Positions 24,454 to 30,604 of a stretch of DNA of 56,255 nucleotides are shown here, piece after piece; positions within the stretch are counted from its first letter, which is position 1; every line of letters starts with the position of its first letter. Source of the DNA: Desulfovibrio sp. (GTDB lineage Bacteria; Desulfobacterota; Desulfovibrionia; Desulfovibrionales; Desulfovibrionaceae). The stretch spans positions 1 to 56,255 of the forward strand of contig JAITRF010000017.1 in NCBI GenBank assembly GCA_031288535.1, written 5' to 3'. Below the pieces are notes generated by a model, which was given only the letters and a program-made list of their open reading frames with translations, was not told where the DNA came from and made no database searches. Made by a program: the position numbers and the translations under genes.

Positions 24454-24846
24454 TTATGCTGGACTATAATCCCTGGGATTTGATTCCTTAATCAGACTCT
24501 CTGCCGGAATACCGAATTGTCCATGAAGATTGCGGATCATTTTTAGTGTAAGCGGTCGTGTATGGTTTAGCACTTCATAGACACGGTTAATACGCCCGAT
24601 TACAGGCTCAAGATCCTTTGGGGTCATTTTGTTTTGCTCCATATAGAACTTGATTGCCTCCACAGGGTCGGGCAAATCCATTGGGTAAACTTTCCGCTCG
24701 TAAGCTTCTACCAGAGTTACCAAAATATCAAGCTGGTCACCTTCGGAGGTATTTTCTTTGGCGCCCATCAGAGTTTCAATCTGATTCAAGGCTTCCCTGT
24801 AGTCATTTTCATTATGGATAGGCTTTATATTCATCGTATACCTCAT
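24454..24846 (-). CDS. higA: HigA-type antitoxin
   Basis: 130 residues. The N-terminal part (YREALNQIETLMGAKENTSEGDQLDILVTLVEAYE) followed by YPMDLPDPVEAIKFYMEQNKMTPKDLEPVIG and an XRE-type helix-turn-helix is the standard HigA layout. Its ATG overlaps the higB stop (ATGA at 24846-24843), so the two are translationally coupled with toxin first, the usual order of this family. HigA binds HigB and represses the pair through an operator upstream of higB. Confidence 0.9.
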   Translation of the reverse strand: MRYTMNIKPIHNENDYREALNQIETLMGAKENTSEGDQLDILVTLVEAYERKVYPMDLPDPVEAIKFYMEQNKMTPKDLEPVIGRINRVYEVLNHTRPLTLKMIRNLHGQFGIPAESLIKESNPRDYSPA

Positions 24847-25142
24847 ACGGTTTGCGGGTTAATTGCGTCATACTGCGCATGTGTACCAATAAAACGAATG
24901 TAAATAACCCGATAGGGGTAATTCAGCCAAACCACTAATCTATATTTGTTTCCGGCAATGTTGAAAACAGCTCTCCCATCCTGCAAGATGCTGGCACTTC
25001 TGAAGTCGGATTTAATGTCGGTTGGTGAAGCCCAATCAGCGTTAAGAGCAAATCTGTGCCAAGCCGGCAGCGGCTCTTTTGCGGTTGTATGAGCCGGGTT
25101 TTCCCAAAAGTTTTTTAATGTGGAAAGAGCGATTATTCTCAT
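24843..25142 (-). CDS. higB: HigB-type mRNA interferase toxin
   Basis: 99 residues from the ATG at 25142. It shows the HigB pattern: MRIIALSTLKNFWENP at the start, then FRSASILQDGRAVFNIAGNKYRLVVWLNYPYRVIYIRFIGTHAQYDAIN. HigB cuts mRNA on the ribosome; HigA neutralises it. No ribosome-binding site precedes the ATG, and the predicted transcription start coincides with the first codon, which suggests a leaderless mRNA. Longer reading to 25352 would run through a terminator and is rejected. Confidence 0.93.
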   Translation of the reverse strand: MRIIALSTLKNFWENPAHTTAKEPLPAWHRFALNADWASPTDIKSDFRSASILQDGRAVFNIAGNKYRLVVWLNYPYRVIYIRFIGTHAQYDAINPQTV

Positions 25143-25148
25143 GATAGC

Positions 25149-25177
25149 AGTATAATCCCAAAATGGGACTACAGCAA
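25149..25177 (-). promoter_or_regulatory. higBA promoter
   Basis: TTGCTG (25177-25172) and TATACT (25154-25149) are 17 bp apart on the minus strand. The -10 box ends six bases before the higB ATG, so transcription should start at or next to the A of the start codon. Confidence 0.7.
25156..25168. promoter_or_regulatory. Palindromic operator in the higBA promoter spacer
   Basis: TCCCAAAATGGGA has perfect 5-bp arms (TCCCA/TGGGA) and lies between the -35 and -10 boxes. That is where an autorepressor such as HigA would block RNA polymerase. Confidence 0.6.
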
Positions 25178-25299
25178 GTGGTTTTGAAGTGCTCCAAAAA
25201 TCAACTTGCCAAAGATTCCGATTTTGTCCGGGGAGGCGTCTTTCCAGCCTACGGCGGGCTACGTCCGTCACGTTCCTGCGCCCTGCCGGGCGCACGAAC

Positions 25300-25326
25300 A
25301 AAAAAAGCCCCTCACGCGGAGGGGGC
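25300..25326 (-). terminator. Orphan intrinsic terminator upstream of higBA
   Basis: On the minus strand GCCCCCTC pairs with GAGGGGC around CGCGT and is followed by seven T. No complete minus-strand gene precedes it, so it may be a leftover leader or attenuator, or it may insulate higBA. Confidence 0.65.
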
Positions 25327-25383
25327 AAGTGATCGGGCTGTTTTCCTCCCATTTCCGACCTGACGCCAAATCCAATTCGATAT

Positions 25384-25413
25384 TTGACACAATAAGGGCA
25401 TTATCTTACCCTT
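25384..25413 (+). promoter_or_regulatory. Possible AbiE promoter/operator
   Basis: TTGACA (25384-25389) is a perfect -35 hexamer; the -10 is unclear (TACCCT at 17 bp is weak). AAGGG and CCCTT (25394-25398 and 25409-25413) form an inverted repeat over the presumed -10, as AbiEi-type antitoxins bind inverted repeats at their own promoter. Confidence 0.35.
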
Positions 25414-25500
25414 TACGCGACAAACATGAAAATTTCAAACTTTTGCCAAAAAGGCTGTTTTTTTGCCCTTTTTGCGTTTTTATTGAAATGAGCAATTAAA

Positions 25501-26265
25501 ATGAAATATTACGAGCGCCTTGTGGATTTAGGTTGCTTCACTCGGGACAACGTGGAAGCAATGACCGGAAATCGCGAAACCGCCCATTCCATGATTGAGG
25601 CTTATAAAAAGAAGGGGTTGATTGAGAGTGTCCGACGCGACTTATTTGTGACTATAAGCCTTGAAACGAAACAACCTGTCCCGAACCGCTACGCCATTGC
25701 TTCTCACGCTGCCCCCAGCGCGTATGTATCCCACCATTCGGCGTTTGAATATCATGGAGTTGCCAACCAGATTTATTACGAAGTTTATGCTTCCTCGGAA
25801 TCGCGTTTCCGGGCATTTGAGCATGGTGGACTGATCTATCGCCATGTTATGTCTCCTTTTGATAAAGGGGTGGAAACCAAAAAAGACGGAACTCGCGTTA
25901 CGGACAAGGAACGCACAGTTTTGGACGGAATCAGGGATTTTGAAAAAATCGACGGGTTGGAGGAACTGCTGCGTTGCATAGGACTGCTCCCTTATCTTGA
26001 ACCTGCCAAGCTGCTTGGCTATTTAAGCGCCTATGACAATGCTTTCTTATATCAAAAAACAGGTTATATCCTTGATCATTACAGAGAATCCCTTAAATTG
26101 CCGGAAGACTTTTTCGCAGCTTGCCGGGATAAAATCCCGCAAAGCAAACGCTATCTTTATAAGAAGTTACAACGCGAAGGCCATGAGTACAATAAAACAT
26201 GGTTGCTGTACGCTCCGGCAGACTTACTCGCTGTTGTTAGTAAAGGAATATCCCATGATGTATGA
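25501..26265 (+). CDS. AbiEi-type antitoxin (type IV toxin-antitoxin system)
   Basis: 254 residues. The N-terminal winged-helix (FTRDNVEAMTGNRETAHSMIEAYKKKGLIESVRRDLFVT) and the following AIASHAAPSAYVSHHSAFEYHGV segment are typical of AbiEi. The middle TRVTDKERTVLDGIRDFEKIDGLEELLRC is the C-terminal domain seen across the family. AbiEi represses its operon and counteracts the toxin without binding it. The partner gene overlaps the last 11 bases. Base composition is AT-rich relative to nearby housekeeping genes, fitting a mobile defence module. Confidence 0.9.
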   Translation: MKYYERLVDLGCFTRDNVEAMTGNRETAHSMIEAYKKKGLIESVRRDLFVTISLETKQPVPNRYAIASHAAPSAYVSHHSAFEYHGVANQIYYEVYASSESRFRAFEHGGLIYRHVMSPFDKGVETKKDGTRVTDKERTVLDGIRDFEKIDGLEELLRCIGLLPYLEPAKLLGYLSAYDNAFLYQKTGYILDHYRESLKLPEDFFAACRDKIPQSKRYLYKKLQREGHEYNKTWLLYAPADLLAVVSKGISHDV

Positions 26266-27238
26266 ATACAGTGGAAAAGTGATAGGCACGCAAGCCGCAA
26301 AACTTGGTTTTATCCGCGACGCTTTTGAAAAGGTAAGCCGTCTTGTGGATGTATTGGCGTTTTTAGAGGGTGATCCACTCTTATCAAAGTGTCTCGCCCT
26401 TAAAGGCGGCACAGCGATTAATCTTGCCATCTTCAATATGCCGCGTCTATCTATGGATATAGATCTCGACTTCGCGGAAAATTTGTCCCTTGAAGAAACT
26501 ATGGTAAAACGAAATGTTGTAACTCAGACCATAGACCGTTTCATGGCAATGCAAAAATATAGCCTAAATGAGTCACGATCTAAACGATATCATGCGCTTG
26601 ATTCATATGTGTATAAATATATCAATACGGCTGGAGTCAATGATAACATTAAAATAGAAATCAATTATTCTCTCCGCAGCCATATACTGCAATTTGTCCA
26701 TCTGCCTGTGGAAACTCTCGGCATATTCGCGCCGGTCAGGGTTCTTGCACTTGCTCCCATTGAAATTTTTGCCGCTAAAATCGTCGCATTGTTCTCACGA
26801 GCGGCGGCGCGTGACTTATACGATGTAAACAGCATGATTGAACGGCGACTGTTGGATGAATCATCGGAGACGCTTCGCAAAAGCATTGTGTTTTATGCCG
26901 CCATCAGTGGAACAAACACGGTGACAGCCTTTAATTTCAACAGCTTGGACACCCTAACAGAGCGTGATATGAAAACACGGCTTGCTCCGATGCTTCGCAA
27001 AAAAGAAAAATTTAACCTCAGCGAAGGACGGGAGAGAGTCAGGAAATATTTGTCCACACTTCTTACCGTAAGCGATGGCGAGAAGCAATTTCTGACTTTA
27101 TTCCAAGGTGGCGAGTACAGACCGGAGTTGATCTTTGGCGGCGAAATGCTTGAGCGTGTCCGGAATCATCCGATGGCCATCTGGAAAGTAAAACAAAGCG
27201 AGCGCATGGCCAAAAATATGACAATTGACCTCAAATAA
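26255..27238 (+). CDS. AbiEii-type nucleotidyltransferase toxin
   Basis: 327 residues from the ATG at 26255 (a second ATG follows directly). The nucleotidyltransferase motifs are visible: LKGGTAINL with the Gly pair at 51-52 and SMDIDLDF with Asp68 and Asp70. Further on, LAPIEIFAAKIVALFSRAAARDLYDV matches the lysine and Arg-Asp-x-x-Asp region of the family. AbiEii proteins stop growth by transferring nucleotides, at least some of them to tRNA ends, and protect populations from phages. Overlap with the AbiEi stop indicates translational coupling. Confidence 0.92.
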   Translation: MMYEYSGKVIGTQAAKLGFIRDAFEKVSRLVDVLAFLEGDPLLSKCLALKGGTAINLAIFNMPRLSMDIDLDFAENLSLEETMVKRNVVTQTIDRFMAMQKYSLNESRSKRYHALDSYVYKYINTAGVNDNIKIEINYSLRSHILQFVHLPVETLGIFAPVRVLALAPIEIFAAKIVALFSRAAARDLYDVNSMIERRLLDESSETLRKSIVFYAAISGTNTVTAFNFNSLDTLTERDMKTRLAPMLRKKEKFNLSEGRERVRKYLSTLLTVSDGEKQFLTLFQGGEYRPELIFGGEMLERVRNHPMAIWKVKQSERMAKNMTIDLK

Positions 27239-27532: not shown

Positions 27533-30500
27533 TCAACAGGTTCTTGAGTGCGCCAGATTTTTTTCAAGTTTCTCGAACATCTCGTGCACGTCGATGGGCT
27601 TGCCTATGTGATCGTTCATGCCCGCTTCCAGGCAGCGTTCCACGTCTTCGCGGAAGACGTTCGCGGTCATGGCCACTATGGGAACGGCGGCGGCTTCCGG
27701 AAAATCCAGGGCGCGGATCAGGCGCGAGGCTTCGTAACCGTCTATGTCCGGCATCTGGATGTCCATGAAAATCAGGGCATAATCCTTGGGGTTGGCCTTG
27801 AACATCTCATAGGCCTTTCGTCCGTCCTCGGCGCAGTCCACCTCCACCCCCTGCGTCTCCAGGAGGGAAACCGCGATTTCCCGGTTCACGTCCACGTCGT
27901 CGGCGAGCAGGACGCGCACTCCCCTGAAGCGCTGTCCCTGTTCCTCCCCGTTTTCCGAGGCGGAGCCTCCGTGCGTTTTGGGCGCGAATTTGCCTATGCA
28001 ATCCAGCACGATCTCCGGCGAAAGGGGTTTTTGGATAAAGGCGGACACCCCGGCGGCCCCGGCCTGTTTTCCCACCGCGTTCCAGATGTCCGCCGAGGTC
28101 ATGATCACGGTCGTGGCGGCCTCCGACAGTTTTTTAAAATGCCTGACCAGTTCTATCCCGTCTTCGTCCGGCAGCTCGTATTCGGTAAGGAGCAGGTCCG
28201 GCAGGCGGTCTTTGCCGGTTTCGACGAGCCCCATGGCTTCGGCGGCGGTTAAGGCCGTGAGGCAGGCGAAGCCGGTTTGCCGGGCGAGGTTGAGGAAAAA
28301 ATCGCGCGTGTCCGGGGAAGGGTCGACGGCCAGAACGAGCATGGCGGACCAGTCCACGGTCTCCGTCCCGGCCGCCGGGCCGTCTTCGGCGCCGCGTTGG
28401 GCCATCAGCGTGAAGGCGAATTTCGCGCCGCGACCCTCCTCGGATTCCACCCAGATGTCTCCCCCCATCATCTCCACAATGCTCTTGGATATGGCGAGGC
28501 CCAGGCCCGTGCCTCCGAATTTGCGGGAAATACTGCCGTCGGCCTGTTCGAAGGACTTGAAAAGCTTGCCCTGCTGGTCCGGAGAGATGCCTATGCCGGT
28601 ATCGGTGACTTCCACCAGCAGCACGCACATGCCGTCGCTCTCGTCCAGCAGGTTCATGGTGAGAGTGATGCGTCCCCCGTCCGGGGTGAACTTGACGGCG
28701 TTGCCCAGAAGGTTGGTCATCACCTGGGCCAGTCTCTGCTCGTCCGAGACGATGGCGGCGGGCACGGAGGGGTCCACGGTGATGAGCAGTTCCTGCTTTT
28801 TTTCCTCGATTTTGAAGGCGTTCACCGTGGAAACGCGCCGGATGAGCTTTTGCACGGGGAATTCCGTGAAGGACAGTTCAAACTTGTTGGCCTCGATCTT
28901 GCTGATGTCGAGAACGTCGTTGATCACCCCGAGCAGGTGGGTGGACGCCTCGTTGATCCGGTCCAGGCAATATTCCTTTTTCTTCAGGTCATGGGAGGAC
29001 TTGGCGATGGTGACCATCCCGATGATGGCGTTCATGGGGGTGCGCATCTCGTGGCTCATGCGGGAGAGGAAATCGCCCTTGGCGCGGCTGGAGGTTTCGG
29101 CGTGCTCCTTGGCCGCCACCAGTTCTATCTCAAGAAGTCGCGCTTCCGTAACGTCCCTTGCGATAAAGGCCACGCCCTCGACGTCGATGTTCATGGGAAA
29201 GGTGGAGAAGGACATGATGCGCGTTTCTCCGTTCCTGCGGATTACCGTGAGCTCGTATTCCCCGGTTTCTTTCAGAAGGGCGCCGGGGAGGATGTCGTTT
29301 TTCATCCTGCGCAGGGAATCCGCGTCAAAAACCGCCGTGATATTGCCGCGTTCCAGTTCGTCCAGGGCGTAGCCCAGGTGTTTCGCCCCGCCCTTGTTGA
29401 GATAGAGGAAGTCTCCGTCCGGCTTGATGAAGCAGATGAGCTGGTTCGAGTTCTCCACAATGGAGTCCATCAGCATGTGTTCTTCTATGCGCTGGCGCAA
29501 GGTGGTTTCGGCCTGTTTGCTGTCGGCGAGCGCGTTGCTCATGCTGCTCAAGCGCAGCAGCATATCGTTCAGGGAGGAACAGAGCAGCGAAAACTCGCGG
29601 CTTCCCGAATACTTGCCCTCATCCAGGTTCCGCTCCGGGGTGATGGCGGAGATATCCGCAATCAGGCTTTCAAAGGGGTGGACCACGACCATGGTGTTTA
29701 TGGAATAGAGTCCGAGGAAGAGCAGAAAGATGAGCATGACCAGGACGTAGACCGTGGTGCGCAGGATATCCATGCCCTGGCTGTAGACGAGTCTTGCGTC
29801 GCTCATGCGCAGGGCGACGTCGTTGCCGAAGATGTCCTTAAGGCGCAGCCAGGTTGAAACTTCGCCGTCGCTGATGATCTCCACGGTTTTTTCCCCGTGC
29901 TGGAGCGGGCCGTCGGAAGCGGCGTCCTGCCAGGCGAAGGCGACCGTATCGTAATGGGTCAGGGCGCGCAGGTAGTCGTTGCGCAGGGAAACACCCATGA
30001 TCGCCACCCCGAAGGCCTCGCGCGAGTCCGGGTCCATCACGGGCATGGCGGCCAGGGCGTAAGCCTGTCCGGAGACGAGCATAATTCCGATGCGTCCGCG
30101 TTCCTCCAGAGGCAGTTCTTCCGTTTTGGCGTCGGGGCGGGAATAGATGGAGATAACCGCTTGGGCCACGGGGTTTACGGCCTCGCTGAAACCCTGCGGA
30201 GCGGGCATGGGCAGGTTAGTCACGGAATCGTAGAAATCCGCGAAGAGGTCCGCGCCCGTCCTGTCCTTGACCAGCAGGATCTCAAGGTTGTGTCCGTTGG
30301 CCGGGGAGCCTTTCGGCCAGTTGTTGCTTATGAAGTCCGGGTTTTTGCCCGCGGCGAAGCGCGAGGCTTCTTCCCAGAAGCCGAAGTCCTCGCAGACCAC
30401 GGCGGTGCGGTGCAGGGTGTCGTCAAGCAGTCCGCGCACCACCTCCATTTGCTTGTCCAGGTAGTTGCCTTCGGCTTTGAACAGCAGATCCGGTATTCTG

Positions 30501-30604
30501 GAATAAAAAAGGACGGCGAACAAAACGGTAAATATCCCGAGTATGGCGCCTGTCAGCAGGAAAACCATAAACCGCAGGGATCGCGGCTGTTTTACAGAGG
30601 GCAT
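27533..30604 (-). CDS. Hybrid sensor histidine kinase: CHASE4-like, HAMP, PAS, kinase, two receivers
   Basis: 1023 residues from the ATG at 30604 (CGGAG eight bases upstream). Membrane segments at about 12-34 and 281-303 enclose a periplasmic CHASE4-like sensor (GFWEEASRFAAGK ... ISNNWPKG). A HAMP-like region, a PAS domain (about 380-490) and the kinase core follow: SHEMRTPMNAIIG with His518, and the ATP lid with DTGIGI and GGTGLGLAI. Receiver 1 (about 753-875) is unusual: the phosphate-accepting Asp is replaced by Glu808 (LLLTEYELPDEDG) and one of the acidic pair by Pro. Receiver 2 (about 895-1015) is normal with Asp948 (IFMDIQMPDIDG). No histidine phosphotransfer domain or response regulator gene is adjacent. 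The signal is unknown. Confidence 0.93.
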   Translation of the reverse strand: MPSVKQPRSLRFMVFLLTGAILGIFTVLFAVLFYSRIPDLLFKAEGNYLDKQMEVVRGLLDDTLHRTAVVCEDFGFWEEASRFAAGKNPDFISNNWPKGSPANGHNLEILLVKDRTGADLFADFYDSVTNLPMPAPQGFSEAVNPVAQAVISIYSRPDAKTEELPLEERGRIGIMLVSGQAYALAAMPVMDPDSREAFGVAIMGVSLRNDYLRALTHYDTVAFAWQDAASDGPLQHGEKTVEIISDGEVSTWLRLKDIFGNDVALRMSDARLVYSQGMDILRTTVYVLVMLIFLLFLGLYSINTMVVVHPFESLIADISAITPERNLDEGKYSGSREFSLLCSSLNDMLLRLSSMSNALADSKQAETTLRQRIEEHMLMDSIVENSNQLICFIKPDGDFLYLNKGGAKHLGYALDELERGNITAVFDADSLRRMKNDILPGALLKETGEYELTVIRRNGETRIMSFSTFPMNIDVEGVAFIARDVTEARLLEIELVAAKEHAETSSRAKGDFLSRMSHEMRTPMNAIIGMVTIAKSSHDLKKKEYCLDRINEASTHLLGVINDVLDISKIEANKFELSFTEFPVQKLIRRVSTVNAFKIEEKKQELLITVDPSVPAAIVSDEQRLAQVMTNLLGNAVKFTPDGGRITLTMNLLDESDGMCVLLVEVTDTGIGISPDQQGKLFKSFEQADGSISRKFGGTGLGLAISKSIVEMMGGDIWVESEEGRGAKFAFTLMAQRGAEDGPAAGTETVDWSAMLVLAVDPSPDTRDFFLNLARQTGFACLTALTAAEAMGLVETGKDRLPDLLLTEYELPDEDGIELVRHFKKLSEAATTVIMTSADIWNAVGKQAGAAGVSAFIQKPLSPEIVLDCIGKFAPKTHGGSASENGEEQGQRFRGVRVLLADDVDVNREIAVSLLETQGVEVDCAEDGRKAYEMFKANPKDYALIFMDIQMPDIDGYEASRLIRALDFPEAAAVPIVAMTANVFREDVERCLEAGMNDHIGKPIDVHEMFEKLEKNLAHSRTC

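Follow-up and report, generated by a model that had tools for sequence, protein, structure and literature searches.

The window (the whole 56,255-nucleotide stretch of Desulfovibrio DNA analyzed here) encodes a hybrid histidine kinase with two receiver domains, the first of which, REC1, bears a Glu in place of the phosphate-accepting Asp. This substitution poses a question: what kind of receiver is REC1, and what might it do in the kinase? The initial annotation of the locus suggested that Glu can mimic the phosphorylated state, such that REC1 may be a locked structural or regulatory domain while the second receiver, REC2, carries the phosphate.

The kinase and its two receivers

As read from its open reading frame, the gene occupies positions 27533–30604 of the minus strand (1023 amino acids, with the stop codon included in the span). 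It starts with an ATG at 30604, and a GGAG lies a little upstream. All of the features described below are encoded on that strand. Pfam identifies a CHASE4 sensor domain (residues 60–219; 29948–30427), a PAS domain (residues 383–489; 29138–29458), a HisKA domain (residues 508–572; 28889–29083), whose phospho-acceptor is His518 by residue numbering, and a HATPase domain (residues 621–734; 28403–28744). Two receivers follow: REC1 (residues 752–878; about 27971–28351) and REC2 (residues 896–1018; 27551–27919). Having HisKA, HATPase, and at least one complete receiver (REC2), the protein is a hybrid histidine kinase; a Pfam scan of the 1023-residue protein revealed no HPt domain.

The five active-site positions of REC1 are occupied by D761, P762, E808, S837, and K859. 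Two observations of the initial annotation are borne out here. With the ATG at 30604, its numbering of Glu808 at the acceptor site is exact (GAA, 28181–28183). The acidic pair is indeed reduced: in the motif AVDPSP, which begins at residue 759, Asp761 is retained and Pro762 replaces the second acidic residue (28319–28324). The span that it assigned to the domain, 28130–28345, lies inside REC1 but covers only residues ~754–825 of it. With Glu at the acceptor position and Pro at the second acidic position, REC1 thus lacks two of the five catalytic residues; the second acidic residue of receivers binds metal directly (PMC12632262). REC1 retains the aromatic switch (F856), Pro812 (D+4), and Gly816 (D+8). 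In a profile alignment, the active site of REC2 is complete (D-D-D-T-K), and its canonical composition makes Asp948 a plausible acceptor, in keeping with the proposal that this domain would carry the phosphate.

Despite its altered pocket, isolated REC1 is recognized by the Pfam Response_reg profile (PF00072) at 52.1 bits, against a cut-off of 30.2. When modeled alone, it is predicted to adopt a receiver fold (pLDDT 89.8, pTM 0.86), and the model matches many receivers with Z about 20. Recognition by PF00072, replacement of the acceptor Asp, and a receiver fold, the last by prediction only, place REC1 among the aspartate-less receivers. Its own genome contains 47 receiver matches, 46 of them over the Pfam cut-off. 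The acceptor in these 46 is Asp in 44, Asn in one, and Glu in one, namely REC1 of this kinase. The 47th match, below the cut-off, starts at profile position 46, and its aligned Glu was not trusted. The receiver with the Asn acceptor (G000:C67:9646-9990) has Ala at the Thr position and is part of a 1029-amino-acid open frame.

The neighbors of the kinase within the window, as identified by Pfam, include toxin-antitoxin genes, an MCP, and a 3-hydroxyacyl-CoA dehydrogenase. Two toxin-antitoxin modules lie adjacent to each other downstream of the kinase (24454–27238): a HigB toxin with its likely antitoxin (24454–25352, minus strand) and an AbiEii nucleotidyltransferase with its likely AbiEi partner (25501–27238, plus strand). 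Neither the antitoxin nor the AbiEi partner has a Pfam match. No conserved neighbor that could serve as an output partner was seen, either in the Pfam results for the window or, by eye, in the open reading frames downstream of one orthologue (L037) and upstream of another (L045).

Orthologues, the wider family, and the descent of REC1

Relatives of the kinase were sought in its own genome and in 15 genomes of the genus (E 1e-100), 288 of the family (1e-180), and 348 of the order (1e-170). The own genome is included in each of these counts, and weaker relatives lie below the cut-offs. One contig-collection scan kept 80 of 299 relatives, and L083, with no H-box match, was left out of the family sequence set. 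Of the matches listed, a Desulfovibrio MAG (isolate Nc350_bin8) is the closest relative that bears a name, and the ones that match from residue 1, CHASE4 end included, are the window itself, L037, L011, and L045.

The closest orthologue, L037 (MAG JAISZH010000123.1), is 86% identical to the window protein; it is identical to L010 across the last 900 residues. Its REC1 has Glu at the acceptor position, encoded by GAG rather than the GAA of the window, and Ala at the site of Pro762. Because the same Glu, spelled by another codon, recurs in so similar an orthologue, a sporadic change or a sequencing error at Glu808 is ruled out. Judging from the sequences, a small lineage has become fixed for the Glu, which is more than a chance occurrence.

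L011 (66% identical over residues 1–744) and L045 (51% identical in the best segment) have the same sensor, but in both the kinase leads through a linker to REC2, and REC1 is absent. The tails of L008 and L061 are likewise too short for a REC1. From the homologue comparison that shows this absence, 24 rows were left out by length, as were two duplicates.

Among the matches listed, the wider family comprises paralogues encoded in the kinase's own genome as well as members from MAGs of Synergistaceae, Treponema, and Clostridia. The REC1 alignment used 67 of the 72 chosen rows; the short tails of L011, L045, L008, L061, and L052 (the locus of which ends there) were dropped. In these 67 rows, the acceptor is Asp in 63, Glu in two, Pro in one, and Ser in one. 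A close set of 50 rows was obtained by removing 17, namely 15 outer-clade rows of the kinase-core tree and the divergent L021 and L022; it contains L036, which is absent from that tree. The close set cuts both ways for the initial annotation: the nearest orthologue keeps the Glu, which argues against a sporadic change, but 47 of the 50 rows have Asp, with Glu in two (the window and L037) and Ser in one. The second acidic position holds an acidic residue in 44 of the 50. The positions of Ser837, Phe856, and Lys859 are generally conserved across the family, both members of the Glu pair included.

Other members of the family are of interest in their own right. A protein from a MAG labeled Acholeplasmatales (L046:4793-5170) has a REC1 with Ser at both the acceptor and the second acidic site. 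L038, L039, L041, L043, and L080 come from MAGs of Synergistaceae, Treponema, and Clostridiales and fall, with weak inner support, within the clade to which most Desulfovibrionaceae rows belong; this placement hints at transfer of family kinases between phyla. Some relatives' titles contain the sample codes Lab288 and Th196, which are also used in termite-gut papers.

How did the kinase come to exist with and without REC1? The four orthologues form one clade in the kinase-core tree (SH-aLRT 98), within a larger clade whose members mostly have REC1. In a 13-row tree, for which REC1 was taken out and the rows were then cut to the last 760 residues, the order is (((window, L037), L011), L045), with support of 99–100. 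This order implies that REC1 was lost twice, or was lost and then regained. A single deletion shared by L011 and L045 is disfavored by the AU test: an exclusive clade of these two received a p-AU of 0.00245 in the 13-row set, a value that is too flattering, as the pair was named after the first tree had been inspected. For one loss followed by a regain in the Glu pair, the REC1 tree offers no close donor in the set. Recent replacement of REC1 from a paralogue was also rejected: the nearest REC1 beyond the pair lies at a path of 2.75, in a poorly resolved tree. The REC1 of the window derives from an ancestral REC1 of this kinase family that was normal and could be phosphorylated.

Rate of evolution in REC1

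Between the window and L037, dN/dS is 0.49 in REC1, the highest value among the folded domains; it is 0.10 in REC2, 0.07–0.08 in HisKA (depending on the borders), 0.13 in HATPase, 0.20 in PAS, and 0.34 in the CHASE4 part. The short linkers flanking REC1 have values of 0.68 and 0.64. For this one pair, and with rounded counts, the REC1 ratio lies under 1 (Fisher p 0.018) and exceeds that of REC2 (p 0.013), whereas comparison of the REC1 counts with those of L002/L027, a canonical pair drawn from these two genomes, yields only p 0.083. In 11 of 12 control pairs (some with common members), REC1 dN/dS ranges from 0.04 to 0.30; in the twelfth, the distant L006/L033 from outside the family, it reaches 0.70. 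The control pair L013/L025, with a canonical acceptor, shows 0.30 for REC1 vs. 0.06 for REC2, the same five-fold excess as the window pair.

A second measure, taken on trees, was the ratio of the REC1 distance to the kinase distance, which is highest where the acidic pair is broken. The six rows whose second residue is not acidic rank 1, 2, 3, 4, 5, and 8 of 50; a Mann-Whitney test of these against the rest gives p 2.5e-7 (2.1e-6 without L037), values that are too good because the rows are not independent. As three of the six rows keep the acceptor Asp, the speed of REC1 is tied to the broken pocket and not to the Glu itself. These three (L038, L080, and L120), with Asp kept, the second acidic residue lost, and fast evolution, represent a different route to a broken pocket.

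The raised dN/dS and the absence of REC1 from two sister orthologues are what one would expect if REC1 were a functionless remnant heading for deletion. We consider this quite improbable, however: the REC1 ratio nonetheless falls below 1, the β4 strand (832–837) is unchanged between the window and L037 with no indel in the whole of REC1, and the predicted fold is intact. REC1 is best read as an aspartate-less pseudo-receiver, predicted to be unphosphorylatable, with constraint that appears weakened but real.

REC1 compared with known pseudo-receivers

In a representative bacterial set, pseudo-receivers account for ~6% of the receivers, and their mode of action is mostly unknown (PMC12632262); those located between a CA domain and a phosphorylated receiver are described as widespread (PMC7010744). 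Of the aspartate-less receivers, 65% retain the first acidic residue and 70% have a basic residue at the Lys position, but only 29% have an acidic residue at the second position (PMC4395418). The residue pattern of the putative pseudo-receiver is typical of this class: it keeps the first acidic residue, the Lys, and the aromatic switch, as is common there (PMC4395418). ChxR, the plant PRRs, and Rim15p of Ascomycota have the same Glu acceptor; unlike these cases (PMC12632262), the present REC1 sits inside a bacterial hybrid kinase and adjoins a complete receiver. The pseudo-receivers of GacS/BarA and RcsC occupy the same site, between CA and the phosphorylated receiver; that of RcsC was recognized by structure only (PMC7010744), whereas Pfam readily finds REC1 here. 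The portions of the literature covered contained nothing on point about loss, degeneration, or selection in such domains, and those on CHASE4 hybrid kinases, Desulfovibrio, and the termite gut contained nothing on the present kinase.

The closest structural parallel is ShkA of Caulobacter crescentus, which is likewise arranged DHp-CA-pseudo-REC-REC, with phosphate on its REC2 (PMC7010744); here, too, a pseudo-receiver would lie between CA and a complete REC2. Among the top 1000 Foldseek matches, full-length ShkA is the best one to a 531-residue model of kinase, REC1, and REC2 (Z 24.1, rmsd 13.7, 402 aligned residues). This model has a pTM of 0.53 and weak linkers on either side of REC1, and at that pTM it was left unused for domain arrangement. 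The shared domain order and the structural match would fit a REC1 with a small-molecule ligand, for instance c-di-GMP, which the ShkA pseudo-receiver binds. The residues of ShkA with roles in c-di-GMP (PMC7010744) differ, however: in a hand-counted profile alignment, Tyr338 corresponds to Phe856 and Arg324 to Asn842. Moreover, the DDR motif of the ShkA REC1–REC2 linker was not seen by eye in the linker of the window protein or of L037. The pockets also diverge, in that ShkA REC1 lost the acidic pair and has Asp in the acceptor column, whereas the present REC1 has Glu there and keeps the first acidic residue (profile alignment). Another ligand is conceivable, but we regard a ligand-sensing REC1 as highly improbable.

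Might Glu808 instead act as the initial annotation supposed? It would bond with Lys859 and Ser837, and the resulting phosphorylated-like shape of REC1 would set the kinase or phosphatase activity. Ser837, Lys859, Phe856, Pro812, and Gly816 are kept in REC1, the first three in both members of the Glu pair. The solved PhoB receiver 2jb9_A is titled "constitutively-active double mutant D10A and D53E". We take Asp10 of PhoB to be the second acidic residue; L037, with Ala and Glu, would then be a natural counterpart of that double mutant. Glu is also the commonest acceptor replacement in aspartate-less receivers, at 26% (PMC4395418). However, Ser837, Phe856, and Lys859 are kept family-wide and hence are not specific to such a lock, and REC1 has the highest dN/dS among the folded domains of the pair. 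Further, since L011 and L045 do without REC1 behind the same sensor, an essential lock is argued against. The idea that Glu confers constant activity is a standing hypothesis that has been disproved for some pseudo-receivers (PMC12632262), and Glu alone is often insufficient (PMC4395418, PMC12632262). That Glu808 locks REC1 in an active state is possible; as the full account of the domain, we judge it unlikely. The initial interpretation is thus partly supported.

The explanation that we prefer, with a probability of roughly 65% taken as a whole, is that REC1 is a non-phosphorylatable pseudo-receiver that serves as a folded spacer or contact domain. It should neither accept phosphate nor bind metal normally, and Glu808 may partly fill its pocket. 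His518 would probably hand its phosphate to Asp948 in REC2, from where it would reach a separate HPt protein and a response regulator. The own genome has ten HPt matches, nine of them over the cut-off, and two of these nine are in short separate open reading frames of 143 and 218 amino acids (the two separate HPt proteins lie at G000:C46:4218-4460 and G000:C99:16565-16798). REC1 would remain a folded domain linked to the catalytic domain on one side and to REC2 on the other; purifying selection on it would be weakened yet present, and its role would most likely be that of a spacer or a contact surface. In the sister orthologues, the same domain is gone. The retained switch residues count against this explanation, as they would also be expected of a lock.

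Given that the REC1 domains of its relatives are either intact or absent, REC1 gives the impression of a switch on its way out rather than of a new device. Tentatively, one may picture a succession of states, an idea that we hold to be somewhat doubtful: a phosphorylatable REC1, as in the family, would have become a Glu/Pro or Glu/Ala pseudo-receiver, with separate deletion in two lineages; loss of the acceptor would permit drift, and the Glu mimic would be a tolerable bridge.

Taken alone, the finding is ordinary: REC1 adds one more pseudo-receiver to a well-described class, and the evolutionary twist is modest. Its use lies in the orthologues, which represent different states: one sensor and kinase combination is found with a Glu-type REC1 or with none, alongside a wide family with a normal REC1, and together these provide a comparison for the role of the middle receiver.
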